Source of the DNA: Deltaproteobacteria bacterium
GTDB lineage: Bacteria; Desulfobacterota; DSM-4660; Desulfatiglandales; HGW-15
Reading direction: 5' to 3'
Assembly: GCA_016926135.1 (NCBI GenBank)
Contig: JAFGPH010000237.1
Location: forward strand, 1-17,458
DNA length: 17,458 nucleotides
This document shows positions 3,505-17,458 of the stretch, piece after piece. Below the pieces are notes generated by a model that saw only the letters and a list, made by a program, of their open reading frames with translations, ran no database searches and had not been told where the DNA came from. Numbering within the stretch: the first letter of the stretch is position 1; each line of letters opens with the position of its first letter. A program made the position numbers and the translations under genes.

Positions 3505-4665
3505 ATGAGAACCACCGTTATCGCAGTATTGATCCTGGGTGCCCTGCTGCTCTTGGGGTACCGTCAGGTCCGCAGCACGGAAAAAGGAGAGGACAAGACC
3601 ATGATTTCGAAACCTGCGGAAACAAAGACGGCCTTCTTCGCCGGCGGCTGTTTCTGGTGCACGGAATCCGATTTCGAGCATACAAACGGCGTCCTGGAGG
3701 TCGTCTCCGGATACACCGGAGGCCATGTAGTCGATCCCACCTATGACCAGGTATCCGCGGGTGCCACAGGCCATGTGGAGGCGATAAAGGTCGTCTACGA
3801 TCCGCAGAAGATCACGTATGAACAACTGTTGGACGTGTTCTGGCGTCATGTGGATCCTACCGATGCAGGGGGGCAGTTCGTGGATCGAGGCGCCCAATAT
3901 CGGAGTGTCATCTTCTATGCCGATGAGCGAGAGCGACAAAGGGCCGAAGCATCCAGAGAACGCCTGGCCGCATCCGGACGTTTCAAGAGACCCATCGTGA
4001 CCGAGATCCTTCCCCTGGGGCCGTTTTACGAGGCTGAGGTCTACCACCAGGATTACTACAAGCAGAATCCGATCCGCTATCGATGGTACCGTTCTGGCTC
4101 TGGCCGGGACCGGTTCCTGGAAAAGGTGTGGGCCGACGTCAATTCCGACATGAAAGGCGAGGAGAGGAAAGAAGGTGAAACCATGACTGCTCCGATGGGG
4201 CAAGGGAAAGAGGAGAACGCTGCGGGCGGCCACAGCCGCCTACAGGACGCGGACCTCCGCCGGCGGTTGACCCCTCTGCAATACGAGGTGACCCAGAAGA
4301 ACGGCACGGAGCCGCCCTTTGACAATGCCTACTGGAACAACCACGAGGAGGGCATCTACGTGGATATTCTCTCAGGGGAGCCCCTGTTCAGTTCAAAAGA
4401 CAAATTCGATTCCGGAACGGGCTGGCCCAGTTTCACCCGGCCCCTCGTACCTGAAAACGTTGTGGGGAAGAAGGACCGCCGTCTCTTCATGGTGCGCACC
4501 GAGGTGCGCAGCAGGCATGGGGATTCCCACCTCGGCCATGTGTTCGACGACGGCCCTCCGCCGAGGGGTCTGCGCTATTGCATCAACTCGGCCGCCCTGC
4601 GTTTCGTCCCCAAGGCAGCGCTGGAAAAAGAAGGCTACGGTCAGTATCTGGCCCTCTTCAGGTGA
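3505..4665 (+). CDS. msrAB: exported methionine sulfoxide reductase, MsrA-MsrB fusion
   Basis: Repairs both S- and R-methionine sulfoxide in proteins, here probably outside the cytoplasm. Residues 3-19 form a hydrophobic signal peptide or anchor. The MsrA domain spans about 42-210, with catalytic Cys49 in GGCFWCTE and the HQDYY segment at 181-185. A charged linker (211-250) leads to MsrB (about 254-386), with SGTGWPSF (303-310), [11 protein letters not shown] (337-347) and catalytic Cys359 in RYCIN. The CxxC pairs that bind zinc in many MsrB proteins are absent (IYVDILSG and RSRHGDSH in their place), so this is the zinc-free type, as in Neisseria PilB. There is no N-terminal thioredoxin domain like PilB's. 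GAGGTG lies four bases before the ATG. It converges with the osmC-like gene, 12 bases away. Confidence 0.96.
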
Positions 4666-4677
4666 AGGTTGGGCGGA

Positions 4678-5118
4678 TCACACCTTGCGCACATCGTACT
4701 CTGTCTCGATCCCCTCCTCCAGGGAATAGGTGAGCAGAGAGCCCCGATCCATGTCCTCCCGAATTCTTTCGAAGGTCGCATCATCCTTCTCATCCACCCC
4801 CACCTCCAATTCAAGAAGGATCCGGGTGTACCTCGTCCTCAGGATATCGTCCCTTTCCTTTTCTATGATGGCCCTGGCGCTCAGGGATCTTGTTTCGACA
4901 CCTGTCGCCTTCAAAGCGTTCACAAAGGTGTTCGTGTAACAGGCCAGCGCAGCACACAGGAGGAGCCTCGCCCCGAGGTGCTCCCCGTTGACTTCTTCCC
5001 GGGTCAGGTCGGCAAAATCAAACCGGATTTCCGGAAGGGATCTTGCCCCGGTCTTGAATACCTGGCTCTTTCCGATCTCGTACCTGCATTCCACGGAAAC
5101 GCCCTTTTTCTCGCTCAT
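4678..5118 (-). CDS. OsmC-family protein, last gene of the TRAP/DsrE operon
   Basis: A 146-residue cytoplasmic OsmC/Ohr-fold protein. The fold is suggested by a beta-rich N-terminus, GEHLGARLLLCAALACYTNT (46-65) with Cys55 and Cys60 on the central helix, and a beta C-terminal half. Classical OsmC/Ohr peroxidases use a second Cys in the C-terminal half; here that region reads DRGSLLTYSL with no Cys, so peroxidase activity is doubtful. Some OsmC-like domains are found with TusA/DsrE sulfur carriers, which fits its neighbours. The start is the ATG at 5118, with GGAGG seven bases upstream; an upstream GTG-started extension has no such site. It begins 14 bases after the DsrF-like gene. Confidence 0.85.
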   Translation of the reverse strand: MSEKKGVSVECRYEIGKSQVFKTGARSLPEIRFDFADLTREEVNGEHLGARLLLCAALACYTNTFVNALKATGVETRSLSARAIIEKERDDILRTRYTRILLELEVGVDEKDDATFERIREDMDRGSLLTYSLEEGIETEYDVRKV

Positions 5119-5132
5119 TTGGTTCCTCCGAG

Positions 5133-5465
5133 TTAAAACACCGCCACGGACCGGCACACCTCAACGATCCCGGCCACCTCGCTCTCAGGAATGACCCGGA
5201 CGCCTTGGAGCAGGGCCTCTTCCGGCAGCCCCCGGCTCTTCAGCCCTTCCCTGGTGCAGTAGACCTCTCCATCCTCCCGGATCACCTCCTTGAGCGTGAC
5301 CGTATGATACCCGGGGTTTTCCAGAAGGTTGTAGACGCCCTCATCCATGAACAAAACCTTGGTCTCCATGGAGGACATGAGCGTCGCATACGATGTCCGG
5401 ATGCCGAGGGTGGCACGCTCCTCTCCGGGGGGGCTTTTGACAACAACGCATATGGAATCGATCAT
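5133..5465 (-). CDS. DsrF/TusC-like sulfur-relay family protein
   Basis: Small cytoplasmic protein (110 residues) of the DsrE/F fold. In the characterised TusBCD and DsrEFH complexes this fold builds a hexamer that passes persulfide sulfur. The N-terminal strand IDSICVVVKSPP (2-13), VLFMDEGVYNLL (37-48) and Cys70 in VYCTREGLKSRGL (69-80) follow the TusC/DsrF pattern of a Cys before S/G-L-x-x-R-G-L. The ATG at 5465 lies five bases after GGAGG; the GTG at 5468 is too close to it. It is spaced 10 bases after the DsrE-like gene and 14 before the OsmC gene, so translational coupling is likely. A general DsrE-family protein is the alternative reading. Confidence 0.82.
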   Translation of the reverse strand: MIDSICVVVKSPPGEERATLGIRTSYATLMSSMETKVLFMDEGVYNLLENPGYHTVTLKEVIREDGEVYCTREGLKSRGLPEEALLQGVRVIPESEVAGIVEVCRSVAVF

Positions 5466-5475
5466 CACGGCCTCC

Positions 5476-5874
5476 TCAATGGCTCAGGGCCAGAAAGACA
5501 TGGGACACCAGGAGATAGTCACAGAAGGTGTGCCCGATATCGCCCCCTTTTACTCCCTCCAGGTACTCCAGGCCCTGGATCCCCCTGGCATGCTCGTTGG
5601 TATGGCATGTGGCGATCTTCGCGCCCATCCGGGCAATCTCCTCCAGTCTCTTTCCCGCCTTTCCGCCCTCTATATGTTCGAGAAGAGGAGCGGCGATGTG
5701 AAGATCGCCCTCGACAGTGTGATCCCTTTTCGAGAGATTCACACCGTTGCCATAAAGGTAGATGTTCACCTTGTCGCCCCGCTTGAGCACCGCCTCGGCG
5801 AGTTTCACGGCAAAAAGGGCGTCTTCGTTCTCACAGCTTCCGGACATCAACATGATGGTCAAGGTTTTTGCCAT
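5476..5874 (-). CDS. DsrE/TusD-like sulfur-relay family protein
   Basis: A 132-residue DsrE-family protein, probably cytoplasmic. The N-terminal strand TLTIMLMSGS is followed by a helix (DALFAVKLAEAVLKRG, 18-33) and strand NIYLYGNGV (37-45). Cys90 in GAKIATCHTNEHARG lies where DsrE and TusD carry their sulfur-binding Cys. Other Cys are 14 and 118. ATG at 5874 has GGAGGAG upstream; an upstream extension (to 5916) would run through that site. In the known complexes this is the subunit that bears the active Cys, so it is the best candidate for a sulfur acceptor or donor in this operon. Confidence 0.85.
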   Translation of the reverse strand: MAKTLTIMLMSGSCENEDALFAVKLAEAVLKRGDKVNIYLYGNGVNLSKRDHTVEGDLHIAAPLLEHIEGGKAGKRLEEIARMGAKIATCHTNEHARGIQGLEYLEGVKGGDIGHTFCDYLLVSHVFLALSH

Positions 5875-5916
5875 AACACCTCTCCTCCTAGAGGCTCGAT
5901 GAAACACCGCCTGCAC

Positions 5917-6047
5917 GCAGGCTGCTCAAAAACGTCCAGATATAAGGCCCCCGAAATCCCGAGGAATGAGGCGTACGGGGTAGTAAGTACGCCGCAGTGA
6001 CGAGGGATGAGGGTAACGCAGTAGATGGGCGTTTTTTGGCAGCCTGC
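5917..6047. repeat. palindromic intergenic repeat element, about 131 bp
   Basis: The ends are imperfect terminal inverted repeats: GCAGGCTGC at 5917-5925 and its complement GCAGCCTGC at 6039-6047 are exact, and 20 of the first 25 bases match. A nested dyad GGCGTAC (5970-5976) / GTACGCC (5987-5993) lies in the middle, so transcribed RNA could fold into a long hairpin. The right end stops at the TAG of the DsrH-like gene (6049-6047); the left end stops about 25 bases before the Shine-Dalgarno sequence of the DsrE-like gene. From memory, similar elements with GGGCGTTTTT-type ends and a central GGCGTAC/GTACGCC dyad are dispersed in deltaproteobacterial genomes. It encodes nothing. Confidence 0.8.
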
Positions 6048-6328
6048 TAGATGCAAAGGACCTTGTCCTCCATATCCATGATCAGCGTGGCCATCCCATC
6101 GTAATCCACCACCTCCCCATCGGGATGAAGTTCAACGCATCTGGTTTCCAGCGCGTCCCGGGACACATAGACCTCTTCCACGCCGGCAGACTGAAACCTC
6201 GCGGACATGAAGGGCGCAGCCCAGTAGACTGCATCTCCCGCAAGCAGCACGGTCTTTTCACCATCTCCTCCCAACTGCCTGATCAGGGCGAAGACATCCC
6301 TCCGGGGTTGGTTCAGGATGAACAGCAT
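6047..6328 (-). CDS. DsrH/TusB-like sulfur-relay family protein
   Basis: A 93-residue protein with the size and pattern of TusB/DsrH: N-terminal strand MLFILNQP, VLLAGDAVYWA (27-37), EVYVSRDALETRC (52-64), and the C-terminal VVDYDGMATLIMDMEDKVLCI (73-93), which parallels the family ending in which a D-Y-x-x-F/M-x-x-L helix precedes a final strand. Cys64 and Cys92 are present; in known complexes this subunit is structural or supporting. ATG at 6328 follows AGGAGG by six bases. It lies 39 bases after the phosphodiesterase gene and is separated from the DsrE-like gene by the repeat element. Confidence 0.78.
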   Translation of the reverse strand: MLFILNQPRRDVFALIRQLGGDGEKTVLLAGDAVYWAAPFMSARFQSAGVEEVYVSRDALETRCVELHPDGEVVDYDGMATLIMDMEDKVLCI

Positions 6329-6367
6329 GGGAACCCTCCTTTCGGATCGGGTGGCTTTTTTGAGACC

Positions 6368-8350
6368 TCAAGCACAGTCATGATGGTCCCACGGCTCCCG
6401 GCTCTGGCGTTCCACGGCGGCCTCCATACGGATCAGGCCATCCTTCAACTTCTGGATCTCCTTGATCTTGTAGTTCGGATTCTTGAAGGTCTGGTAAAGG
6501 ACGGCCCCTTCGACATTTTCCGGCACCGGGAAGTCCATCATATAGCAGACGGTCGGGACGATATCCGTGATGGAGCAGGTCCGCCCCAGGCGAAAACCCT
6601 TTTTCAGGCCCGGGCCCGCCATGCACAGGAGCCCCCTCAGAGAGCCGACGCCGTAATCCGCGGTGGGCAGGATCTGTCCGTGCTGGCTCCCGAACCAGGG
6701 CTGCAGGGCATAGACCACGTCTCCTACCCGGTCGCCGTGGAGTCCCAGCAGGCGGGCGTCTTTCTTGGTCAGGGCCAGGGCCACGGGCCTCTTTCCCGTT
6801 GTCGGATCCACGTAGCCGTAAAGGGCGTCGATGATCTCCTGCTGCACCTTCTCATAGTCCTCCGGCTCCACGATACCGCCCTTGTCCCGCCCCTTCAGGT
6901 TGACATACACATAGATCTCCCGCTGGGGGATCGCCTTGCTCCTTGAGATGTCCACCGCGGCGGTGCTCAGGCTCAGGACCCTCTCTCTCAAGTCGAACTC
7001 CTGGGGCCCATTTTTCTCGATAGGCGTGGCAAGCCCTGCAGGCACCAGGGCCTTGTAAGGATCAAAGGTCGGACCGTCCGGGGTGGCCCCGTGATCCGAG
7101 ACCACGACGATAAGGGTGTCCTTGCCCGCCGCCTCGACGATCTTTGCAAGCATGCGGTCTTCGATCTCGTACATCATGCGGTGCACCTTCCAGGCCCTCT
7201 CTCGCTTTTCCGGATCAGGACTCGCCATGTCGCTGATCACCACGTGGTACATCCAGTCGATGGGATGAGAGTGCATGATGAAAAAATCCCACTCCTCGTC
7301 CCGCATCAGGGTGGAGGCTGCATCGGCCATCCAGGTGGAGAGGTGGTCATTCATCTCCACATAGGTATCCATGTCGATGAGATCGAGCATGGCCATCACC
7401 ATACCCCCCTGGGCGTGAATACACCCGTCTTCTGAGGCGAGTGCCGTGGCGATCTCCGGGGGAGAGGTCCAACCGCCGTTCTCCACCATGGCACCGACGA
7501 GGAGCCGGAAGTCTTCTGCGTCCTCGGACAATTCGACGAGCTTGCAGCGGAAGAACACCTCACGTTGGGAGTCGTCGGGCATCCTGATCTTGGTCGTAAT
7601 CTTGGGACTCCACTCACCCGCCTTGAGGGTGAAAAAGGCATCCCTGAAATCCTTGGAGGGCGACAGGCTGACCCTGTCATAGGTCTCGTTGCCGTTCTGC
7701 CGCACCAGGGCATACCAGATCGTGTTCGCAGGTTTGACCCTGGCATCCTCAAAGGGGAGACGCACCTCCATTTCCAGGGGGTCCTCTCCCATGGTGTCCA
7801 CGTTCTGCCACCCTTCAGCCTCTTTGAATTCTCCTCGGAAGGCCTTGGGATAGTAGCCCGTGGTGATGAGCTGATCGCCGGAGAGGGAAAACACGCTGTC
7901 CAGTTGAGGCATGTCCGCCCGTCGCTCGCCGGGGGTAAAGCCCTCCCCTGCCACGACAATCCCGTTCTTCATGTGGCTGGGCCAGGAACTGGGATAGTTG
8001 AAAACAATGCACTTCTTCCCTTCCTTGTCCAGGGCATCCCAGATGTACTCGGCCTGGCACCGATCGCTGCTGAAGCTCTGCCGGATATGGCCGTTGTCCA
8101 GTGCCTCTCCTTCCACGTGGTAGTGAAAGTCGGTGATGCCGTGGGTGCCGGCTGAGGCCCCCGTGGCAATGGCGGCCCAATTGGGGGGCGTCACCGTGGG
8201 ATAGGGCACGAGACAGTTCTCGGCCCAGACTCCCTTGTCCCTCAAGCTCTTGAAGGTGGGAAGAATCCCCTCCTCGATGTATTTTTCGATCATATGGGGC
8301 AAGGCGCAATCCAGTCCTATGATTGCCACCCTTTTCGGTTTCGTTGCCAT
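6368..8350 (-). CDS. type I phosphodiesterase / nucleotide pyrophosphatase-type hydrolase (alkaline phosphatase superfamily)
   Basis: A 660-residue metal-dependent hydrolase expected to cleave phosphate or sulfate esters or diesters. Metal and active-site residues are visible in order: Asp14 in IIGLDCA; Thr54 in PTVTPPNW, the likely nucleophile; Asp365 and His369 in HSHPIDWMYH; Asp419-His420 in VVVSDHGATPDG; His557 in GSQHGQ. Residues 140-300 form a large insertion between the first and second metal clusters. There is no signal peptide, so it probably acts in the cytoplasm on an imported compound. ATG at 8350 follows AGGAGG; a longer reading from 8422 would translate through it. It lies between the TRAP membrane gene and the DsrH-like gene. 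The substrate is unknown. Confidence 0.88.
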   Translation of the reverse strand: MATKPKRVAIIGLDCALPHMIEKYIEEGILPTFKSLRDKGVWAENCLVPYPTVTPPNWAAIATGASAGTHGITDFHYHVEGEALDNGHIRQSFSSDRCQAEYIWDALDKEGKKCIVFNYPSSWPSHMKNGIVVAGEGFTPGERRADMPQLDSVFSLSGDQLITTGYYPKAFRGEFKEAEGWQNVDTMGEDPLEMEVRLPFEDARVKPANTIWYALVRQNGNETYDRVSLSPSKDFRDAFFTLKAGEWSPKITTKIRMPDDSQREVFFRCKLVELSEDAEDFRLLVGAMVENGGWTSPPEIATALASEDGCIHAQGGMVMAMLDLIDMDTYVEMNDHLSTWMADAASTLMRDEEWDFFIMHSHPIDWMYHVVISDMASPDPEKRERAWKVHRMMYEIEDRMLAKIVEAAGKDTLIVVVSDHGATPDGPTFDPYKALVPAGLATPIEKNGPQEFDLRERVLSLSTAAVDISRSKAIPQREIYVYVNLKGRDKGGIVEPEDYEKVQQEIIDALYGYVDPTTGKRPVALALTKKDARLLGLHGDRVGDVVYALQPWFGSQHGQILPTADYGVGSLRGLLCMAGPGLKKGFRLGRTCSITDIVPTVCYMMDFPVPENVEGAVLYQTFKNPNYKIKEIQKLKDGLIRMEAAVERQSREPWDHHDCA

Positions 8351-8397
8351 TGTTTCATTCCTCCTTTCGATCGTTTCAAATCCATTGATCCCTGTCC

Positions 8398-8412
8398 GTC
8401 CCCATCGGGGAC
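8398..8412. other. short perfect hairpin between dctQM and the phosphodiesterase gene
   Basis: GTCCCC and GGGGAC surround a 3-base loop in the 111-base gap between the two minus-strand genes. There is no U tract after it, so it is not a standard terminator. It could attenuate or protect the mRNA; this is speculation. A direct repeat ACTCCATTC (8411-8419 and 8430-8438) lies beside it. Confidence 0.35.
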
Positions 8413-8461
8413 TCCATTCCATGTTCCCGACTCCATTCGTTCAGCGAGCGCGCGGTTCCCC

Positions 8462-10441
8462 TTAGAAAAACAGCCCGGGCAGGAAAAGGGCGATCTGCGG
8501 GAACAGGGTCAAAATGACCGCACAGACGACCATGCAGACAAAAAAGGGGAAGACCCCTTTGAATATGGTCTCCATGGGCACTCCCTTGGCCACGCTGCTC
8601 AGGGCGAAGACATTGACCCCGATGGGAGGCGTGATCTGACCCATTTCCATGACGATCACCGTGATCACCCCGAACCAGATGGGATCGAACTCCAGGGCCA
8701 CGACCGAAGGGTAGATGGCCGGCAGGGTCAGCAGGATCATGGGGATCACGTTCATCAGGCAGCCCAGGACGATGAACAGCATGATGACGGCCGCAAATAC
8801 GAGGTAGCGATTCACCTCCAGCCCTGTCACCACATCGGCGAGGATGAAGGGAAACCTGGTTGCAGCGAGAAAGTAGCCCAGGATGGCCACCCCGATGAGG
8901 ATCATCAGGAGTTTGGTCGTCAGTTTGGCCGTTTCCCTCATGGCCAGCATGAGCTTTTCCGGGGTGATCCGTTTTCTGCAGAGGGCATAGATGAAAGCGC
9001 CCACCGCACCGATTCCACCCCCCTCCGTGGGGCTGAAGATGCCCCCAAGGATCCCTCCCAGGATCAGGACGAAGAGCAGGAGCATGGGGACGATCCCCCT
9101 GAGAGAGAGCAGTTTCTCCTTCAGGGTGGAGGACTCGCCCCGGGGGGCCAGCTCCGGCCGGTATCTGGCCATGAGATAGATGCAAACGATGAAGAGGGCT
9201 GCCAGAAGGAGCCCGGGGAGAATCCCTGCGACAAAAAGTTTGCCCACCGACTCCTCTGTGACGATGGCGTAGAAGATGAACCCCACGCTGGGCGGGATGA
9301 GGATCCCCAGGGTCCCGCCCGCAGCCAGGCTGCCCGTGGCCAGGCTGCTGCTGTATTGTTTCTTTTTCATCTCCGGGAGGGAAACCGCCCCCATGGTGAC
9401 CGCCGTGGACATGCTGTCCCCGCAGACGGCGGCAAATCCGGCGCATCCGGCCACCGCGGCCATGGCAAGCCCTCCCGGAAGCCGGCCGAACCACTTGTAG
9501 GCCGAATCGAAGAGGTCCTGGCTGATCCCGGAATGAAAGGCCAGTTCTCCCATCAGTACAAACAGGGGAACCACGGCCAGGAGAAAGGAGGCCGTTGCGT
9601 GGTAGGGCGCGATCCCCAGCATGCTCAGGGGCGCCGTCATATTCTTGCTGACGACCAGCATGCCCAGGAAGCCCGTCACGGCCATGGCGAATCCGATGGG
9701 CATCCGGACAAGAAGAAAGATGAAGAGGAGCCCCATTCCGGCAAGGCCCAGCGGGAGTCCGCTGAATCGTCCTGGAAGCATTTTCACGAGAAGGGGCAGA
9801 CCCAGGATAAAGATGCCCAGGGCGAAGGCGGGGATCAAACACCCCGCTCCCCCCTTCTCCATGAGCCCGGCCACGCACCTCAGGAGATCGCCCAGGAGAA
9901 CAAGGGCGAGCAGCAACGTGCCCAAGGCGGCCACACCAAGGAATACGGATATGGGAATCCCGAGGGAGAAGCTGGTCTCCCCCATCTTTTGAATAACCTG
10001 CAGGATGGTCTGCCAGCCCATGAGCGAGAAAACGACCAGGCAGACGGTGTAGTTGGAGATATCGAGGAGATCCCTCAACCGCGCCGGGAATCGGGAGAAG
10101 AGTAGATCGATGCTCACGTGCCCCTTGTCTCTCTGGATAACGGCCAGGGCCAGGAACACGATGAGGATCATCATAAACTCTTCCATTTCAATAATGCCCG
10201 GAATGGATTTCCCGAGGATCATGCGGCTCAGGACATCCAAGAAGATGGGGACGGACATGATCCCGGCGATGACGGCGCTCACCGTCTCAAGCTTCCGGTT
10301 GAGGCGTTCCATCATCCCCGAAAGAAAACCCACAAGGTGTCTTACTCCTCTCCCCTTCACGGTCCTTGTCTTTCCCGCCGTTTCCTTCAGGTAATCCAGG
10401 CCGTTCGTGTCTGCCGCAATGGCAGCGGGATATGAACTCAT
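8462..10441 (-). CDS. TRAP transporter fused membrane subunit (DctQ-DctM)
   Basis: Inner-membrane component of a tripartite ATP-independent periplasmic transporter, driven by a sodium or proton gradient. At 659 residues it fuses the four-helix DctQ (about 45-200) and the many-helix DctM (about 200-655). EMEEFMMILIVFLALAVIQR (85-104) and KGHVSIDLL are DctQ marks. GDSMSTAVTMGAVSLPEM (341-358) followed by GGTLGILIPPS (375-385), and later SPTEGGGIGAVGA, are DctM marks. The first 40 residues are hydrophilic. The start is set at ATG 10441 after GGGGGATGAAGGA; MMERLNRK about 43 residues later is a possible shorter start. It follows the binding-protein gene by 100 bases. Confidence 0.93.
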   Translation of the reverse strand: MSSYPAAIAADTNGLDYLKETAGKTRTVKGRGVRHLVGFLSGMMERLNRKLETVSAVIAGIMSVPIFLDVLSRMILGKSIPGIIEMEEFMMILIVFLALAVIQRDKGHVSIDLLFSRFPARLRDLLDISNYTVCLVVFSLMGWQTILQVIQKMGETSFSLGIPISVFLGVAALGTLLLALVLLGDLLRCVAGLMEKGGAGCLIPAFALGIFILGLPLLVKMLPGRFSGLPLGLAGMGLLFIFLLVRMPIGFAMAVTGFLGMLVVSKNMTAPLSMLGIAPYHATASFLLAVVPLFVLMGELAFHSGISQDLFDSAYKWFGRLPGGLAMAAVAGCAGFAAVCGDSMSTAVTMGAVSLPEMKKKQYSSSLATGSLAAGGTLGILIPPSVGFIFYAIVTEESVGKLFVAGILPGLLLAALFIVCIYLMARYRPELAPRGESSTLKEKLLSLRGIVPMLLLFVLILGGILGGIFSPTEGGGIGAVGAFIYALCRKRITPEKLMLAMRETAKLTTKLLMILIGVAILGYFLAATRFPFILADVVTGLEVNRYLVFAAVIMLFIVLGCLMNVIPMILLTLPAIYPSVVALEFDPIWFGVITVIVMEMGQITPPIGVNVFALSSVAKGVPMETIFKGVFPFFVCMVVCAVILTLFPQIALFLPGLFF

Positions 10442-10541
10442 TCCTTCATCCCCCGTTCTTTCTCCGGTGGGCAGGCCTGCTCTTGATGGCACCCGGCAAC
10501 AGACCCACCCGTTCCTTGTCTCCAAAAGAGCCCGGTTTTTG

Positions 10542-11612
10542 CTACTCTTCGTAACCTCTACCCGTGGTTTTTGCGTAGGCCTTTCCCAGTTTCAGGGCCT
10601 CATTCAGGATGACCCTTGCGTTCCTGAAGCCCTTGTCCTCCATCTTCCTGTCCCAGTCTTCGTGCATGCTCTTAAGGTTCTTGAACCACGTCTCCTTCTC
10701 GCTGTCCGGAAGGGCATAGAAGGTGTGGCCCTGGGATTTCATCCATTTGACGTCCGCAACCGCGCCCTGGTCCAGGGTCTTGCCTGAAGCCTGGGCCATT
10801 TTGGCGCCCGTTGTCTCCTCAAAAACCTTTTGGATATCCGGGGGGAGCTGTTTCCAGAGTTTCCGGTTCATGCCTGCCCAGAAGGGACCCACATTGATGT
10901 CCACGATGGTGTGGTATTTGGTGGCATCGCTGATCTTGTAAGACCTGACAGGCGCAAGGGGGCACAGGACGCCATCCGCCATGCCTCTCTGGAGGGCCAG
11001 ATAGGTGTCGGTCGGCGCGATCTGGAGGGGACTGGCGCCCAAGGCCTTCAGGATCTGGAGGAGCTTCTGGCTCCATCCGATGATCTTCATCCCATTCAGG
11101 TCATCCATATTGCGCACCAGTTTCTTGGTGGTGTGAAGCTGGTAGGTGGCGCTGGCCCACTGCCAGAGTATCTTCACGTCCTTGTACTCATCCCGCCATT
11201 CCGGGAACTCGTTATAGAGGTCCCAGGTGACGAGGCTTCCCGCCTCGGCGCTGGGTACGATCATGGGCAGTTCCATGGCCTCGTTCAACGGGAATTTGCC
11301 CGGGTTCATCCCGCAATAACCCGAGCCGATATCGATCACGCCGCTTGCCGTGGAGTCATAGGAGTCCTTTGCCGGGGCCAGCGTGTTGGGGTTGAAGTAT
11401 GTGATCTTGACCCTGCCCTGGGTCCGTTTTCCGACCTCCTCCGCCCAGGGGAGGAAGGCGTTCCTCACCGTCGGGTGCTTGTCCATGTATTCACTCGTGA
11501 AAGTCATCTCGAAAACCTTGTCCGCAGCATGTCCATTCAACACACCCGGTCCGTAAAAAGAAAAACAGGCCACCAGGACGGCCAGAAGTGATGCCGCAAA
11601 TGCCTTTTTCAT
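10542..11612 (-). CDS. dctP: TRAP transporter periplasmic solute-binding protein
   Basis: A 356-residue DctP-family receptor that hands solute to the DctQM protein. An export signal covers residues 1-30, with basic MKK, a hydrophobic core and GHAA before DKVFEM. LVAC at 13-16 resembles a lipobox, so a lipoprotein is possible. VIDIGSGYCGMNPGKFPLNEAMELP (92-116) and ALGASPLQIAPTDTYLALQRGMADG (190-214) are the usual family segments. In most members the segment before the latter reads K-I-R, where the Arg clamps a carboxylate; here it reads GMKIIGWSQ (174-182), without Arg, so the ligand may not be bound in the usual way. ATG 11612 follows GAGGAGG. First gene of the operon, with a sigma-54 promoter upstream. 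Confidence 0.92.
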   Translation of the reverse strand: MKKAFAASLLAVLVACFSFYGPGVLNGHAADKVFEMTFTSEYMDKHPTVRNAFLPWAEEVGKRTQGRVKITYFNPNTLAPAKDSYDSTASGVIDIGSGYCGMNPGKFPLNEAMELPMIVPSAEAGSLVTWDLYNEFPEWRDEYKDVKILWQWASATYQLHTTKKLVRNMDDLNGMKIIGWSQKLLQILKALGASPLQIAPTDTYLALQRGMADGVLCPLAPVRSYKISDATKYHTIVDINVGPFWAGMNRKLWKQLPPDIQKVFEETTGAKMAQASGKTLDQGAVADVKWMKSQGHTFYALPDSEKETWFKNLKSMHEDWDRKMEDKGFRNARVILNEALKLGKAYAKTTGRGYEE

Positions 11613-11668
11613 CTCTTTTTCCTCCTCTGTGCGTGATAGGTGTGAAATCGAGTTCGACCCTATGCATG

Positions 11669-11684
11669 GCAATTAGCGTGCCAG
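11669..11684 (-). promoter_or_regulatory. sigma-54 (-24/-12) promoter of the TRAP/DsrE operon
   Basis: The minus strand reads CTGGCACGCTAATTGC: TGGCACG (11683-11677), four bases, TTGC (11672-11669). The GG and GC dinucleotides are 10 bases apart, exactly as RpoN requires. Transcription should start about 12 bases on, near 11657, leaving a leader of about 45 bases before dctP. An enhancer-binding activator gene is immediately upstream, which makes the assignment strong. Confidence 0.88.
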
Positions 11685-11902: not shown

Positions 11903-13720
11903 TCACACCCTTTCAGGTAATTTGTCAGGAGTTCCCATTTTCTTCATCTTTCTGAAGAGGGTCTTCCGTGGGATACCCAGCAGATCCGCGGCCCTGCTCC
12001 TATTCCAGCCGGTCTGATGGAGGGCCCGGGCGATCATGTCCCTCTCCACCTCCACCACCGCGGTCCTGAGATCGCCCACGACCTCCTTCCCTCTCCTGCC
12101 GGGAATCTCCGAAACATCAGGGCTGAGGACCTGGTCGGCGTGGATGAAATCGAGCCGCCCCACGGTGAGGTAGCGGTGGAGCGCATTCTGGAGTTCCCTT
12201 ACGTTTCCCGGCCAGCGATAACTGTAAAGGGATTCCATGACCCTTCCAGGCAGGGAGGAGAGTTCCCTGCCTTGTTTGCCGGATCGGAGGAAATGGTCCA
12301 CCAGGAGAGGGATGTCTTCCTTTCTCTCCCTGAGAGGGGGCAGATGGATCGGGATGACGTGAACCCTGTAAAAGAAGTCCTCCCTCATGAGTCCCTTGCG
12401 CATCCGCTCCTTCAGGTCCCTGTTGGTGGCCGCGATCATGCGGAAATCCGACGTTTCGGCCTTGCTGCTCCCCACAGGCGTGTAGCCGCCTCCCTCAATG
12501 GCCCGCAGCAGTTTCACCTGGATGTTGAGACTCAGGTCCCCCACCTCGTCGAGGAAGAGGGTTCCCCCTCCGGCCCGGTCCAGAAAGCCACCCTTGTCCG
12601 CATGGGCGCCCGTGAAGGCCCCCTTCCGGTAACCGAAGAACTCGCTCTCCAGGAGGGTCTCCGGAATGGCCCCGCAATTGACGGCTACGAACTCCCTGTC
12701 ATGGCGGTCGCTCATGTCGTGGATGGCACGAGCCACCAGTTCCTTGCCTGTCCCCGACTCTCCGTAGATGATCACGCTTGCCGACCCGGCAGCCGCCCTC
12801 AGGATGAGTTCGTACACCTCCTGCATGACCAGGCTCTTTCCCACAATATTCCCGAACCGGTACCGGTCCCTGATGGAAGAACGCAGTTGAATGTTCTCCC
12901 TTTTGAGGCGGCGGGCCTCCTCCTCGGCAGCGAGTTCCCTGGCCCGTGTCTCCGTGATGTCGATCACGGTCGAGAGCACGGCAGGCCTGTTCTCCCAGTT
13001 GATCACGTTGGGGTGACCTTCCACCCAGATCTCACGTCCGTCCCCGGCGACACCGGGCCACCGGAGGGTCTTTTCCTCCGACCTGCCGGACTCAAGGGCC
13101 TCCAGCGTCTCCCTGAACATCTCCCTGTGGCCCTCCGAAATGAGATCATGGGAAGGTCTGCCGGCCACGTCCTCGGGGCCGGCATATCCAAACATACGCG
13201 CAAAGGCCTGGTTGACCATCACAAAGCGCCCTCCCTGCATGAGGGCCACACCGTCGGGCACATTTTCGGCCAGAATTCTGTAGACCTCCTCAGACTGCAT
13301 CAGGGCCTTTTCAAAGTCCTTCTGTTCCGTCACGTCCAGAAAGCTCTCCACGGCTCCGGAAATCTCGCCGCTCTCATCATAAACGGGGGCAGCGAGAAAC
13401 CGGAGGTGTCGGGCCTGACCGCCCACATCCTCAAAGAAGTCCTCTGTCTCCCATGCATGGGGGACTACGCCCGATCTGGAGACCCTCTCCTGCCCGTAGA
13501 GGCTCCTCATGCCCTTCCGGTCGTGCTCCACCACAAAGTCGGCCAGGGTGGGCCTTTTCTCCGGGTAGAAGGGTTCCCAGTGACGATCCGTCCCCACCAT
13601 CTGCGCCGCCGAGCGTCCTGTGAGCAGTTCACAGGCCCGGTTCCACCGCGTAATCCGGTGTTCCCGGTCGATGGCATACTGGGCGACGGGCGAAAACTCG
13701 ATGATGCCGATATCGCTCAT
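11903..13720 (-). CDS. sigma-54-dependent enhancer-binding activator with two PAS domains
   Basis: A 605-residue NtrC-type transcription activator. Two PAS sensor domains (about 5-130 and 142-260, each ending in a DVTE/DITE segment) are followed by a short coiled linker (262-285) and an AAA+ domain (about 290-520): Walker A GESGTGKE (320-327), GAFTGA (367-372), Walker B TLFLDE (387-392), and RWPGNVRELQNA (502-513). A Fis-type helix-turn-helix ends the protein (about 553-594, GWNRSRAADLLGIPRKTLFRKM). No phospho-receiver domain is present, so a small ligand or redox state is probably sensed by the PAS domains. ATG 13720 follows GGAGGAAGG. The intact GAFTGA motif shows it can engage sigma-54, and the sigma-54 promoter just downstream is its likely target. 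Confidence 0.96.
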   Translation of the reverse strand: MSDIGIIEFSPVAQYAIDREHRITRWNRACELLTGRSAAQMVGTDRHWEPFYPEKRPTLADFVVEHDRKGMRSLYGQERVSRSGVVPHAWETEDFFEDVGGQARHLRFLAAPVYDESGEISGAVESFLDVTEQKDFEKALMQSEEVYRILAENVPDGVALMQGGRFVMVNQAFARMFGYAGPEDVAGRPSHDLISEGHREMFRETLEALESGRSEEKTLRWPGVAGDGREIWVEGHPNVINWENRPAVLSTVIDITETRARELAAEEEARRLKRENIQLRSSIRDRYRFGNIVGKSLVMQEVYELILRAAAGSASVIIYGESGTGKELVARAIHDMSDRHDREFVAVNCGAIPETLLESEFFGYRKGAFTGAHADKGGFLDRAGGGTLFLDEVGDLSLNIQVKLLRAIEGGGYTPVGSSKAETSDFRMIAATNRDLKERMRKGLMREDFFYRVHVIPIHLPPLRERKEDIPLLVDHFLRSGKQGRELSSLPGRVMESLYSYRWPGNVRELQNALHRYLTVGRLDFIHADQVLSPDVSEIPGRRGKEVVGDLRTAVVEVERDMIARALHQTGWNRSRAADLLGIPRKTLFRKMKKMGTPDKLPERV

Positions 13721-14051: not shown

Positions 14052-14759
14052 ATGCAGAACCAGGGAGAGCGGTTGTTCCATGAGGTGAAAAAGCCCAGGG
14101 CCTCCGACGAGGCCAGGAGCCTGATCCTCAGCCTGATCAGCGAAGGTCGTTTGCAGGTGGGGGACCAGTTGCCTTCCGAGACAAGAATGGCCGAGCAGAT
14201 GGGGCTCAGTCGGGTCCCCGTGCGCGAGGCCGTGACCAGCCTCGAGCAGTTCGGCCTTCTCACGGTCAAGCGCGGCTCCGGCGGCGGGGTTTTCGTGGCC
14301 GAGCCGTCTCTGGAGCCTTTTGGGAAGTTCTTCTCCGTCCTTCTCAAAATGCGAAAGGCGAGTGTCCGTGAACTGACCGAGGCCCGCCTCCTCATCGAAC
14401 CCGGTGTGGCCGCCCTGGCGGCCCGAAACAGGGAGCCCGTGCATATCGACCGCCTCAGGCAGTCCATCGCCAACTATCGCAGTTCCCTGGAACAGGGAAG
14501 GGAAAGAAGCATCCAGGACTGGGATTTCCACATTGCGCTGGCAGAGGCTTCCCACAACACGGTTCTGGAGGTGCTGGTCAAAGGCATGGTGCCCCTGCTT
14601 CACAAGTCGGTAAAAGATCTGGAGTTTGACGTGGATAATCGAATCAGAGGGATCAGGGGTCACGAGAGGGTCCTGGCCGCCGTGGAGGCGGCCGATCCGG
14701 AGGGTGCGCAACAGGCCATGTCGAACCATGTGAACCGCATGGCCACCTTGTGGAAGTAG
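14052..14759 (+). CDS. GntR-family regulator, FadR subfamily (FCD domain)
   Basis: A 235-residue transcription factor, probably a ligand-released repressor. The winged helix spans about 10-82, with PSETRMAEQMGLSRVPVREA (41-60) as the helix-turn-helix and GSGGGVFV as the wing. The all-helical FCD domain spans about 105-230 and has the metal/carboxylate-binding set: Asp156 and His160 in DWDFH, His204, and His226 in NHV. FCD proteins commonly bind organic acids, which fits control of the following catabolic genes. ATG 14052 follows a GGGGGA. The next gene starts five bases after its stop. Confidence 0.94.
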   Translation: MQNQGERLFHEVKKPRASDEARSLILSLISEGRLQVGDQLPSETRMAEQMGLSRVPVREAVTSLEQFGLLTVKRGSGGGVFVAEPSLEPFGKFFSVLLKMRKASVRELTEARLLIEPGVAALAARNREPVHIDRLRQSIANYRSSLEQGRERSIQDWDFHIALAEASHNTVLEVLVKGMVPLLHKSVKDLEFDVDNRIRGIRGHERVLAAVEAADPEGAQQAMSNHVNRMATLWK

Positions 14760-14764
14760 CCGCT

Positions 14765-15673
14765 ATGGGATGGGCTGCGTATCACTTGGCGGAAAATGTG
14801 AGGGAGGCCCTTGAGGCCCTGGCCGCCGCTCAAGGCGAAGGCCGGATCATCGCCGGAGGAACGGATCTGGTGATCCAGTTGCGGCGCGCGGGTCGAGGGG
14901 CGGCCATTCTGGTCGATATCACCCGCATCCCGGGATTGAACCGGATAGAGAAGCAGGGGAACCTCCTGGTCATGGGTGCCCTGGTCACCCATGCCCAGGC
15001 CGCTGCCTCACCCATCGTCCGTCAACACATCACGGCGGTGGCGGAAGCCTGCGCGCACGTCGGGTCCCCGCAGATACGCAATGTGGGGACCCTCGTGGGA
15101 AATATCGTTTCGGCCCAGCCCGGGGCGGATGCAGCGCTCGCCCTGCACGCCTTTGACACGCAGGTCAGAGTAGCGGGAAGGGCGGGAGTGCGAACCATGG
15201 CCCTCCCCGACCTCTATGAAGGCCTCGGGCTTTGCTGTATCGATAGCTGCCGGGAACTGATTACCCACCTGATCGTCCCTCTCCCGCAGGAGGAGTGCGG
15301 AAGCGCCTTTGAGCGCCTGTCCCAGCGCCGCACCCTCACCCTCCCGGTGGTGAACACGGCCGTTTCCATCGCCCTGAGCGAGAACACAAAGAAGATCCAA
15401 AAGGCCCGTGTGGTCGTAGGCCCGGTATCCTCCACGCCCTTCAGGGCGTCAGAGGCGGAGGAAATCCTCCAGGGCTCTGAGCCGACCATGGAGGCATTCG
15501 GCCGCGCCGCAAGGGCAGCGGCCGAGGAAAGCAGGCCGAGGGCCAGCCTCCTGCGGGGAGGGAAGGAATACCGCCAGAACATGGTGGAGGTCATGGTCAG
15601 GCGTGCTCTGATGCGCGCGACCGAAAGGGGAAAGGGCATATGCCAGGACAAGGGGAACTCGTTCTCACGGTGA
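14765..15673 (+). CDS. molybdenum hydroxylase FAD-binding subunit (CoxM/HbaC-like)
   Basis: Medium subunit of a xanthine-dehydrogenase-family enzyme, carrying FAD that passes electrons from the iron-sulfur subunit. In its 302 residues, IIAGGTDLV (28-36) and SPQIRNVGTLVGNIV (101-115) are the two FAD-binding signatures. The C-terminal CO-dehydrogenase-flavoprotein domain covers about 175-285. The four-Cys insert that holds a [4Fe-4S] cluster in 4-hydroxybenzoyl-CoA reductase beta subunits is not seen. ATG 14765 is preferred, with GGAAG about eight bases upstream; GTG 14750 would overlap the regulator gene. Its 3' end overlaps the next gene by 34 bases. Confidence 0.93.
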   Translation: MGWAAYHLAENVREALEALAAAQGEGRIIAGGTDLVIQLRRAGRGAAILVDITRIPGLNRIEKQGNLLVMGALVTHAQAAASPIVRQHITAVAEACAHVGSPQIRNVGTLVGNIVSAQPGADAALALHAFDTQVRVAGRAGVRTMALPDLYEGLGLCCIDSCRELITHLIVPLPQEECGSAFERLSQRRTLTLPVVNTAVSIALSENTKKIQKARVVVGPVSSTPFRASEAEEILQGSEPTMEAFGRAARAAAEESRPRASLLRGGKEYRQNMVEVMVRRALMRATERGKGICQDKGNSFSR

Positions 15674-16128
15674 ATGGAGTGGAGCACTGCCTGAAGGTCG
15701 ATCCGGAGGATTCGCTCCTCCATGTCTTGCGCGCGCGACTGGGGTTGACCGGTACCAAGGCCGGCTGCGAGGAAGGGGAATGCGGGGCCTGCACCGTGCT
15801 GCTCGAAGGAATCCCGGTGGCTTCCTGTCTCATGCCGGCCTTGCGGTGCCAGGGGCTCCACGTGGAAACCGTGGAGGGGTTGGCCCGGGGAGAAACACTC
15901 CACCCCCTGCAGGAGGCCTTTGTCGAGGCAGGAGCCGTCCAGTGCGGCTTCTGCACCCCGGGCATGCTGATGAGCGGAGCGGCCCTTCTCCGGGAAAAGC
16001 CCTCACCGGGCAGGGAAGAGATCGCTCGTGCCCTTTCAGGCAACCTCTGTCGCTGCACCGGATATGTGAAGATAGCAGATGCCGTGTCCCTGGCGGCGAA
16101 GAGAACAAAAACCGCAGGAGGCGCATAG
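15640..16128 (+). CDS. molybdenum hydroxylase [2Fe-2S] subunit (CoxS/HcrC-like)
   Basis: Small subunit of 162 residues that relays electrons between the molybdenum centre and FAD. The plant-ferredoxin-type cluster is held by Cys43, Cys48, Cys51 and Cys63 (GCEEGECGAC...C). The second cluster, on the helical domain, is held by Cys102, Cys105, Cys137 and Cys139 (CGFCTPGM and LCRCTGY). All eight ligands are intact. The ATG at 15640 lies inside the end of the FAD gene, after GGGGAAAGGG. The UbiD gene follows after three bases. Confidence 0.96.
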   Translation: MPGQGELVLTVNGVEHCLKVDPEDSLLHVLRARLGLTGTKAGCEEGECGACTVLLEGIPVASCLMPALRCQGLHVETVEGLARGETLHPLQEAFVEAGAVQCGFCTPGMLMSGAALLREKPSPGREEIARALSGNLCRCTGYVKIADAVSLAAKRTKTAGGA

Positions 16129-16131
16129 AGA

Positions 16132-17458
16132 ATGGGGCTTTGCCTTCGAGACTGGATAGGGGTGCTGGAGGATCGGGCGGCCGGGGAAATCATCCGGGTC
16201 AGGAAGCAGGTCCATCCATCGCAGTTCGAGTCGGCCAGTGTGGTGGACGCCCTGGAACGGCAGGGCCGATTCCCCGCCGTGCTCTTTGAATCCGTGACCG
16301 ACCTCAGGGGTCGGCCCACTTCCTTCAAGATCCTGAACAATACCTTCGGCACGTTTCGGAAGATCGGGTTGGCCCTGGGTGCGGATACAGGGAATCGCAT
16401 GCCGATCCTGGACCGTATTCTGGAACGCTCCACCCGATCGATCCCTGTGAAGAAGGTGCCGCCGCAGGAGGCCCCTGTCAGAGCCCTGGTCACGGGGAAG
16501 GGGGAGGTCGACCTCTCGCTGCTTCCGGGCATTCGCCATACGGACCTGGACGGCGGACCCTATTTCACGCCCGTCGTGGTCTCCAGGAGTTCCGAGGGCC
16601 GATACAACGTCTCCTGGAACCGGACCCAGGTTCTGGACCGAAAACACCTGGCCATCTACATGTCGCCCCGCCATCTCTGGTCCACCTTCGCGGCAGCAGA
16701 GGCCCGGGACCGGTCTCTTCCTATAGCCGTGGTCCTCGGCCATCATCCCGCTTTCCACTTGACCGGTGCGTTGCTCAGCCCGCTCAACGCGGACGAGTAC
16801 GAGTCCGCCGGTGGGGTGCTGGGCGAGGCGCTGGAGGTGACCCGGTCCGAGACCTGGGGGGACGATCTCCTGGTGCCCGCCCAGGCAGAGGCCGTGATTG
16901 AGGGCCATATCCTCTCCCGCAAGCGATGCGTGGAAGGTCCCTTTGGTGAATTCACGGGCTATTCCGGTGCACAGCGGCTCTCCTGGGTTGTCGACGTCGA
17001 GGCGATTACCATGCGAAGGGAGCCGATCATAATCGACATCTTCCCCTGTCAGACAGAGCACATGAACGCCCACCTCCCGATTGAGGCATCCATCTACCAG
17101 AGCGCCAGGAAGGCCGTGCCGGGCGTGACCAAGACCTGCTGGGTGGGATCGGGCGGGCCCTTCAATCTCATTATCAGCCTGAGAAAGCGCACCGAGGGGG
17201 AACCCATGCGGGCGGCCATGGCCGCCATGAGCGCCAGCAACTTCATCAAGCACGTGATCGTTGTGGACGACGACATTGATCCGGAGGACAAGGCGGAGGT
17301 CATGTGGGCACTGGCTTCGCGGGTGCAGGCCGACGCGGACATTACCGTGCTGAAGAACCTGCAAGGTCAGGTCCTGGACCCCTCCTTGAGGCATGAGATC
17401 AAGTCATCCGGCATGATCATCGACGCCACCAAGCCCCTGGACCGGCCTTTTCCGCGCA
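16132..17458 (+). CDS. UbiD-family prenylated-FMN decarboxylase, 3' end outside window
   Basis: Reversible (de)carboxylase of aromatic or alpha,beta-unsaturated acids using prenylated FMN. The visible 442 residues cover most of the family length of about 450-500. Key residues: Asn159 and Arg164 in NVSWNRTQVL and His181, which match the cofactor/metal-binding segment; Glu224 in DEYESAGG; and the active-site block CVEGPFGEFTGYSG (266-279), with Glu268 and Glu273 in the places of the catalytic acids of Fdc1/UbiD. Start ATG 16132 follows AGGAGG. No UbiX prenyltransferase gene is in the window. Being co-transcribed with Mo-hydroxylase subunits suggests aromatic-acid breakdown. The substrate is not predictable. 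Confidence 0.95.
   Translation, partial: MGLCLRDWIGVLEDRAAGEIIRVRKQVHPSQFESASVVDALERQGRFPAVLFESVTDLRGRPTSFKILNNTFGTFRKIGLALGADTGNRMPILDRILERSTRSIPVKKVPPQEAPVRALVTGKGEVDLSLLPGIRHTDLDGGPYFTPVVVSRSSEGRYNVSWNRTQVLDRKHLAIYMSPRHLWSTFAAAEARDRSLPIAVVLGHHPAFHLTGALLSPLNADEYESAGGVLGEALEVTRSETWGDDLLVPAQAEAVIEGHILSRKRCVEGPFGEFTGYSGAQRLSWVVDVEAITMRREPIIIDIFPCQTEHMNAHLPIEASIYQSARKAVPGVTKTCWVGSGGPFNLIISLRKRTEGEPMRAAMAAMSASNFIKHVIVVDDDIDPEDKAEVMWALASRVQADADITVLKNLQGQVLDPSLRHEIKSSGMIIDATKPLDRPFPR

Follow-up and report, generated by a model that had tools for sequence, protein, structure and literature searches.

A conserved sigma-54-controlled gene set joining an importer, an NPP-fold hydrolase and OsmC–DsrHEF proteins points to an undescribed use of an organic, probably sulfur-containing compound

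A DNA stretch of 17,458 nt from a Deltaproteobacteria bacterium (Desulfobacterota, lineage HGW-15; contig JAFGPH010000237.1 of assembly GCA_016926135.1), hereafter called the window, was analyzed by comparative genomics. On its minus strand, genes encoding a TRAP importer, a 660-aa hydrolase of the alkaline phosphatase superfamily (HYD), three DsrEFH-like proteins and an OsmC-like protein form a gene set that suggests a so far undescribed utilization of an organic compound, which probably contains sulfur. In the reading that we favor, a conserved sigma-54-controlled system takes up and hydrolyzes a small zwitterion, probably sulfur-bearing, with OsmC–DsrHEF acting as a sulfur relay; we give this reading slightly less than an even chance (about 0.48). 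That a conserved system exists is well supported by the comparison of genomes; the chemistry is our suggestion.

The genes are transcribed in the order activator, dctP, dctQM, HYD, dsrH, dsrE, dsrF and osmC, and the gaps from dctP onward are 100, 111, 39, 172, 7 and 14 nt. An earlier note on this DNA had described seven closely spaced genes on one strand; this arrangement was confirmed, and the identities it gave to dctP, dctQM, the phosphodiesterase-type hydrolase, DsrF and OsmC were borne out by Pfam. The closest relative found with its context, locus L003, carries eight genes in identical order with 48–76% identity. When all loci were read, 24 DsrE units were found across 23 loci. All 24 units had the order dsrH–dsrE–dsrF with osmC within 1.5 kb, and HYD or a shrunken, catalytically reduced relative of HYD (TAIL) was located within 10 kb in 21 of the 24. 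Within the same 10 kb, a sigma-54 activator was present in 20/24 units and a TRAP or BCCT importer in 16/24. The units with neither HYD nor TAIL were L144 and L152, both at contig ends, and L121. The earlier note had made its proposal depend on a conserved neighborhood in related genomes, and the set was indeed conserved there, with matching sigma-54 sites, and inherited as a block.

Several layouts of the set were identified: activator–DctP–DctQM–HYD–DsrH–E–F–OsmC (the window and L003), HYD–DctP–DctQM–activator–OsmC–DsrH–E–F (L103, L153, L156 and, up to its contig end, L152), BCCT–HYD–DsrH–E–F–OsmC–TAIL (L143, L147–L151, L154 and L158, with L145 cut by a contig end), and HYD–OsmC–DsrH–E–F (L001, after DctQM, and L010 of Chloroflexi). 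In the BCCT layout, an EamA permease and an activator followed in six of eight loci (L143 and L147–L151). The osmC–dsrHEF unit lies between HYD and TAIL in eight loci. L010 has no such importer and no sigma-54 activator; a GntR regulator precedes the genes and beta-oxidation genes follow them. Further variants were found in L146, L155, L157 and L159, the last of which has two complete OsmC–DsrHEF units side by side around HYD–TAIL (L159:5927-13400). Exact protein matches named some of the carriers as Maridesulfovibrio salexigens (L143), Taurinivorans muris (L146), Pseudodesulfovibrio sp. zrk46 (L149) and Desulfobaculum xiamenense (L153 and L154). In T. muris, HYD–TAIL–DsrH–E–F–OsmC is accompanied by a second OsmC, an activator and BCCT; this second OsmC has two cysteines and lies beside the activator and BCCT (L146:13687-14118). 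The parts seen of PMC10507020, which describes T. muris, call its dsrEFH enigmatic in function and also name a separate dsrE-like gene. The dsrEFH of that paper is presumably the L146 unit.

HYD was also found in other settings. In HYD loci without dsrHEF, the order TauC–TauA–TauB-like–HYD–TAIL was present in all six loci with enough upstream sequence. HYD–TAIL was located near OsmC–Lpd–GcvH in L111–L114, and the choline trimethylamine-lyase gene cutC was present in L111, L113 and L114. The OsmC of these Lpd–GcvH sets (L111:15235-19901 and L112–L114) keeps both cysteines, which suggests lipoyl-dependent recycling. Genome G430 (L066–L068 and L097–L102) has nine HYD-family matches in varied settings, none of them adjacent to dsrHEF. 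Its osmC–dsrH–dsrE–dsrF unit (L121:8775-11715) directly follows a pyridoxal phosphate (PLP) trans-sulfuration enzyme of the cystathionine gamma-synthase/methionine gamma-lyase type, a possible sulfur donor, with no HYD nearby. In the Chloroflexi genome G002, a beta-oxidation gene directly follows the corresponding HYD, and no such DsrE was found in this genome despite HYD. Short HYD-like open reading frames of about 270–280 aa with the C-terminus EPAF are located near osmC–HYD in Chloroflexi (L004:6092-6937 and L002:4122-4928).

The sigma-54 promoter claimed by the earlier note was recovered as an exact –24/–12 site, TGGCACG-N4-TTGC, at 11669..11683 on the minus strand, 71 nt ahead of dctP. 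Upstream of it, at 11903..13720 (minus strand), lies the gene for a 605-aa sigma-54 activator with the architecture PAS–PAS–AAA–Fis (Pfam Sigma54_activat, 1.5e-63, PAS and HTH_8), the presumed regulator, in which the GAFTGA motif can be read. The site is the sole match to the consensus in the window with no more than one mismatch, and it is weak evidence alone because about one chance match is expected. In L003, an identical site (11 of 11 consensus positions) was found at the matching place upstream of dctP, and the counterpart of the activator, 66% identical, occupies the same place. When 250 nt upstream of each gene were scanned for at least 9 of 11 positions, with GG and GC required, 23 of 39 operon starts had a site vs 1 of 110 internal genes, with a background of 0.027 per region. 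The binomial P of 2e-26 overstates this result, since the loci are related and were counted as independent. The operon-start test was run with L104, L118, L089, L090, L092, L098, L101, L102, L010, L121, L144 and L145 set aside, together with two contig-edge starts. In the promoter scan, which took in all loci but L144, L145, L118 and L001, no site was seen for L104, L089, L090, L092, L098, L101 or L102. In L103, L153 and L156, the HYD–TRAP unit and the separate OsmC–DsrHEF unit each have their own sigma-54 site, and the two halves are therefore tied where they stand apart.

Carriers were counted with search profiles made from two to six seeds, or from a single seed for some neighbor genes. At E <= 1e-50, HYD was found in 8 of 395 genomes of the phylum of G003, in 24 of 298 of the class of G004 and in 16 of 63 of the class of G001. 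A single-sequence query at E <= 1e-10 found DsrE in 1 of the 395 genomes of the phylum of G003. The alignment search found DsrE in 15 of 199 genomes in the family of G194, in none of 192 in the class of G018 and in 4 of the 63 in the class of G001, and these were exactly the four genomes with HYD at E < 1e-270. The class of G004 gave one strong DsrE match (G004, 232 bits); three matches of 33–34 bits were not counted as family. OsmC of the cluster kind was present in 6 of 17 HYD-positive genomes and in 0 of 29 HYD-negative genomes. Among the 12 HYD genomes of one class without DsrE, only G431 had it, next to a sulfonate-type binding protein. Thus, osmC–dsrHEF is an add-on of one branch. Both HYD and DsrE were present in 20 units from several lineages, including Chloroflexi, and over these units the distances of HYD correlated with those of DsrHEF–OsmC (r 0.67, Spearman 0.37; no permutation out of 2000 reached this level). 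In both trees, each of the two D. xiamenense clusters grouped with others of its type and not with its genome mate. Congruence is partial, as other branches are placed differently in the HYD and DsrHEF–OsmC trees.

HYD (6368..8350, minus strand; Phosphodiest PF01663, 4e-33) has the NPP fold and the full set of seven metal and nucleophile residues D, T, D, H, D, H and H, whose roles we assign on the assumption that the NPP pattern applies. No signal peptide was apparent by eye, and HYD is predicted from its sequence to be a cytoplasmic two-metal NPP-fold hydrolase. ENPP6 and ENPP7 were among its best fold matches, tied with all NPPs. HYD ends in a C-terminal arm, REPWDHHDCA (codons at 6371..6400, minus strand); at least 85 of the 120 homologues among the matches listed end in (D/E)CA. 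The arm, EPW-D-K/H-HDCA, sits on HYD or, in many genomes, on TAIL. EPW(D/E)KHDCA is the ending of all 22 TAILs in the alignment, from which those of L151, L113, L114, L094, L095, L096 and L021 and the second of L159 were left out; the penultimate Cys is invariant in 21 of 21. The arm is DsrC-like in having a penultimate Cys on a flexible C-terminus; no homology of the arm proteins to the DsrC/TusE family was found, as the L149 TAIL gave no Pfam hit and HYD no DsrC hit. A role of the arm as strict partner of DsrE was rejected, given 12 genomes of one class with armed TAIL and no DsrE, and given L010, where dsrHEF accompanies an armless HYD (other HYDs on that contig are armed); the idea lives on only in the desulfurating reading given below. 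In L003, on a metagenome-assembled contig, the HYD frame is broken near codons 591–607 (L003:7633-9605); the second piece is 83% identical and the arm lies in another frame.

The sulfur proteins are encoded on the minus strand by dsrH (6047..6328), dsrE (5476..5874), dsrF (5133..5468) and osmC (4678..5118). DsrF carries the DsrE/F-like domain PF02635 (5e-9) and OsmC matches PF02566 (4e-7); dsrF was present, and the position of dsrH kept, in 24/24 units. The other two labels of the earlier note held less firmly. Matches of DsrH to the Pfam and NCBIfam DsrH/TusB models are weak (PF04077, 4e-4, 21 bits, under the gathering score of 24.4 bits), and DsrE has no Pfam or NCBIfam match of its own; its label is supported by a profile of the protein and four relatives, which matched A. 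vinosum DsrE 2hy5 (6e-4), and by PF02635 on 19 of 30 homologues among the matches listed. Cys90 of DsrE (codon 5605–5607) was kept in 24/24 units, and its TCHT motif in 29 of the 30 listed homologues, the exception being a 106-aa fragment. The region around this Cys aligns weakly with YchN. Neither DsrF nor DsrH has an invariant Cys among the 24 units. By the NCBIfam models, the window proteins fall under the TusBCD cut-offs (TusD no hit, TusC 32 of 94 bits, TusB 31 of 49 bits), as do the L149 subunits, whereas E. coli TusBCD pass. DsrC was present in all six genomes tested.

Cys60 of OsmC (codon 4939–4941), the one conserved Cys, was kept in 32 of 32 proteins and aligns with the first Cys of E. 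coli OsmC. At the position of the second Cys, a Ser was found in all 24 dsrHEF-linked copies and in 34 of 34 homologues among the matches listed, whereas all 8 HYD-associated copies that lack adjacent dsrHEF retain the second Cys, among them the Lpd–GcvH type and the second copy of T. muris. This difference suggests that DsrE-Cys90 took over the role of the second Cys, and it offers a precise and testable clue to a pairing of OsmC with DsrE. A persulfide or thiosulfonate on OsmC could be passed to DsrE and an oxygen atom could not, which would favor sulfur chemistry over peroxide reduction.

The importer of the window consists of DctP (10542..11612, minus strand; PF03480, 1e-35, and NCBIfam NF037995, 95 bits vs a cut-off of 50) and the fused membrane subunits DctQM (8462..10441, minus strand; DctQ PF04290 and DctM PF06808). 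The Arg of the K-I-R motif of DctP is a carboxylate ligand. At residues 175–180 of the window DctP, MKIIGW replaces the usual motif; this Arg is Ile in 6/6 cluster DctPs (KII, with Trp after it) and is kept in the five aligned solved chains. TRAP, BCCT, a taurine-like ABC importer (in relatives without dsrHEF) or none recognised alternate among the loci, so the importer is not a fixed part of the system. Of the solved structures, TauA (6e-34) and SsuA came closest to the one ABC binding protein of the relatives that was searched, and taurine models were the top matches for each of the three ABC parts in both loci scanned. Choline-like amines are indicated by the BCCT carriers and CutC, although the motif of the cluster BCCT has presumably moved away from that of betaine carriers. 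All of these clues would be satisfied by a zwitterion bearing a sulfo or phospho group. Uptake, hydrolysis and protein-bound sulfur handling, as the earlier note had read the operon, stay the best account, while a fixed importer and a hydrolase that always needs the sulfur genes were dropped.

The favored reading can be set out as a pathway. A swappable importer, in the window TRAP DctP–DctQM, would bring in a sulfonate resembling taurine, or a sulfate or phosphate ester of an amino alcohol, and cytoplasmic HYD would cleave it with its two-metal NPP-type site. The arm of HYD or TAIL probably completes the active site of the neighboring subunit, in the way that the C-terminal extension of choline-O-sulfatase contributes to a neighboring active site in the parts seen of PMC9063841. 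DsrH, DsrE and DsrF are expected to form a DsrEFH-type complex in which DsrE-Cys90 carries sulfur. OsmC may be the dedicated partner of this complex, its Cys60 taking up sulfur released from the product. As OsmC lacks the second Cys, DsrE would resolve the OsmC adduct and pass the sulfur on, plausibly to DsrC.

Several observations weigh against this reading. The formylglycine sulfatase signature (C/S)-X-(P/A)-X-R, as given in the parts seen of PMC6189696, had no match in HYD. The ABC parts of L089 scored under the NCBIfam cut-offs for TauA, TauB and TauC, with 206 of 304, 225 of 357 and 225 of 342 bits, respectively, and the divergence that we assume for the BCCT motif counts here as well. 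To our knowledge, Thr enzymes of the NPP type are phospho-hydrolases and not sulfatases. The relay genes stand apart from HYD in L121, and no sigma-54 site was found by the promoter scan in this unit or in the Chloroflexi unit L010; 12 of 35 loci lay outside the operon-start test. Twelve genomes of one class have armed HYD/TAIL (a 41–44% identical HYD form) and none has the cluster DsrE, and 11 of the 12 are also without the cluster OsmC. The dsrHEF-linked OsmCs form one clade (100/100), and Cys may therefore have changed to Ser just once. Furthermore, the DsrEFH proteins were among those not detected in the T. muris proteome, according to the parts seen of PMC10507020.

The same genes could instead scavenge phospholipid headgroups. 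HYD would then be an ENPP6-like phosphodiesterase or phosphomonoesterase acting on glycerophosphocholine, phosphocholine or a similar sulfur-free compound, and OsmC–DsrHEF would be a thiol/redox guard of the enzyme or of the cell in sulfide. OsmC family proteins are often peroxidases, and the NPP fold with its Thr nucleophile, the phosphocholine-type ENPP6 and ENPP7 among the best folds, and the BCCT and CutC neighbors are in line with this proposal. We nevertheless consider it rather unlikely: ENPP6 and ENPP7 tie with all NPPs, the ABC neighbor is of the taurine/sulfonate type, control is by sigma-54 and no sign of a phosphate regulon turned up, none having been searched for, and a sulfur-carrier complex with an OsmC devoid of the second Cys would be odd as a peroxide guard. 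HYD might also be a formylglycine-free choline sulfatase that releases sulfate and choline from choline-O-sulfate, the sulfur relay being secondary. This zwitterion would suit BCCT and the sulfonate-type binding proteins, CutC lies near HYD–TAIL in L111, L113 and L114, and choline-O-sulfatase, itself a member of the HYD superfamily, likewise relies on a C-terminal extension (PMC9063841, in the parts seen). However, the sulfatase signature is absent, the nucleophile is Thr, choline sulfatase appeared only among the matches of TAIL and outside the top 50 of HYD, and release of sulfate would leave DsrHEF without a job, which makes choline-O-sulfate very improbable as the substrate.

OsmC–DsrHEF could be an ordinary relay of the DsrEFH/TusBCD type, serving DsrC in sulfur oxidation or disproportionation or serving tRNA thiolation, and merely share a regulon with the importer and HYD. 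The presence of DsrC in 6/6 genomes, the conserved Cys of DsrE and the L121 unit, which lies beside the PLP enzyme without HYD, are consistent with such a role. Its likelihood is lowered markedly by the three subunits, which score under the TusBCD cut-offs, by the 21 of 24 units with HYD or TAIL, by the eight loci with the unit between HYD and TAIL, and by G002, which also has DsrC along with HYD and no such DsrE; we hold it to be distinctly unlikely. A bolder form of sulfur chemistry, which we regard as quite doubtful, would make HYD/TAIL an oxygen-free desulfurating hydrolase. A pseudo-hydrolase subunit or a neighboring protomer would bring the arm's penultimate Cys into the active site, where it would accept, in the manner of that of DsrC, the sulfur of a taurine- or sulfoester-like compound cleaved by the NPP-type site; the sulfur would move on to OsmC-Cys60, with DsrE-Cys90 standing in for the lost second Cys, and would end on DsrC for respiration. 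Chance adjacency of unrelated genes gains a little from the rarity of DsrE (30 proteins listed, 1/395 genomes of one phylum and 0/192 of the class of G018), but it is contradicted by the conserved neighborhoods, including the 20 units from several lineages that hold both HYD and DsrE, and is scarcely credible.

In the 172-nt gap between dsrH and dsrE of the window, a palindromic repeat element was identified at 5917..6047, with 22-nt arms that are 86% complementary; it touches the dsrH stop codon. None of 200 shuffled versions folded as well as the element (z –3.2), and its strong RNA fold might weaken expression of the downstream genes. In L003, the same gap is about 12 nt. Convergent with osmC, a fused MsrA–MsrB methionine sulfoxide reductase is encoded at 3505–4665. 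Beyond the activator, 14052–17458 holds a GntR/FCD regulator (Pfam) and then open reading frames that by eye resemble medium, small and cut-off large subunits of the xanthine-dehydrogenase/CO-dehydrogenase type.

In this cluster, a DsrEFH-type complex stands outside both the dsr/tus and the tusA–yeeE contexts and is linked with an importer, an NPP-fold hydrolase and a one-Cys OsmC; the cluster is present in the cultured strains M. salexigens, D. xiamenense and T. muris. If the substrate is an organosulfur zwitterion, the system would reveal how gut bacteria and sulfate reducers obtain sulfur from compounds resembling osmolytes. An enzyme whose active-site arm is supplied by a pseudo-hydrolase partner would be unusual in its construction, and the desulfurating hydrolase, if real, would give DsrEFH complexes one more function and serve as an anaerobic substitute for enzymes of the TauD type.

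The earlier note knew of no described system with this set, and a literature search, with most subscription papers and supplements outside it, likewise found no description of it, and no paper on DsrE combined with OsmC, with or without a TRAP transporter, with BCCT in Desulfovibrio or with the AlkP superfamily in Desulfobacterota. The components resemble known systems. Like type I DsrEFH of Allochromatium vinosum and TusBCD of E. coli, the cluster has three small subunits, the transfer Cys of DsrE/TusD (24/24) and DsrC at hand. Unlike them, it scores under the TusBCD cut-offs, has the order H–E–F vs tusD–C–B (equivalent to E–F–H) in E. coli, and is tied to osmC and HYD and not to dsr or tus genes, in agreement with the earlier note, which had seen no TusA or dsr neighbors. 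The type II DsrEFH of cable bacteria and sulfate reducers is likewise a DsrEFH-like complex in sulfate-reducer lineages, and it lies with tusA and yeeE/yedE (PMC13293266, in the parts seen). In comparison, which was by neighborhood only, the window cluster pairs with osmC, and no tusA or yeeE/yedE was found among the 10 scanned window proteins, nor is there room for them in the gaps; osmC is not mentioned in the parts seen of PMC13293266 or PMC11406059. The OsmC protein shares family membership and the first, peroxidatic-type Cys with OsmC/Ohr peroxidases and differs from the two-Cys enzymes by Ser in place of the second Cys in all 24 dsrHEF-linked copies. HYD has the fold and the full catalytic residue set of the NPP/ENPP phosphodiesterases, but it is predicted to be cytoplasmic, carries a large insertion and the EPW-D-K/H-HDCA arm or works with a separate arm-bearing pseudo-hydrolase, and stands in a different substrate setting. 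With choline-O-sulfatase of S. meliloti it shares the superfamily, and the proposed role of the arm parallels the C-terminal extension of that enzyme, whereas HYD has a Thr nucleophile and no formylglycine signature. The operons of relatives headed by a TauCAB-like importer (6/6) resemble tauABC–tauD of E. coli, with HYD–TAIL in the place of the oxygen-dependent TauD; unlike that system, the ABC parts of these relatives (L086–L093 type) score under the taurine cut-offs.

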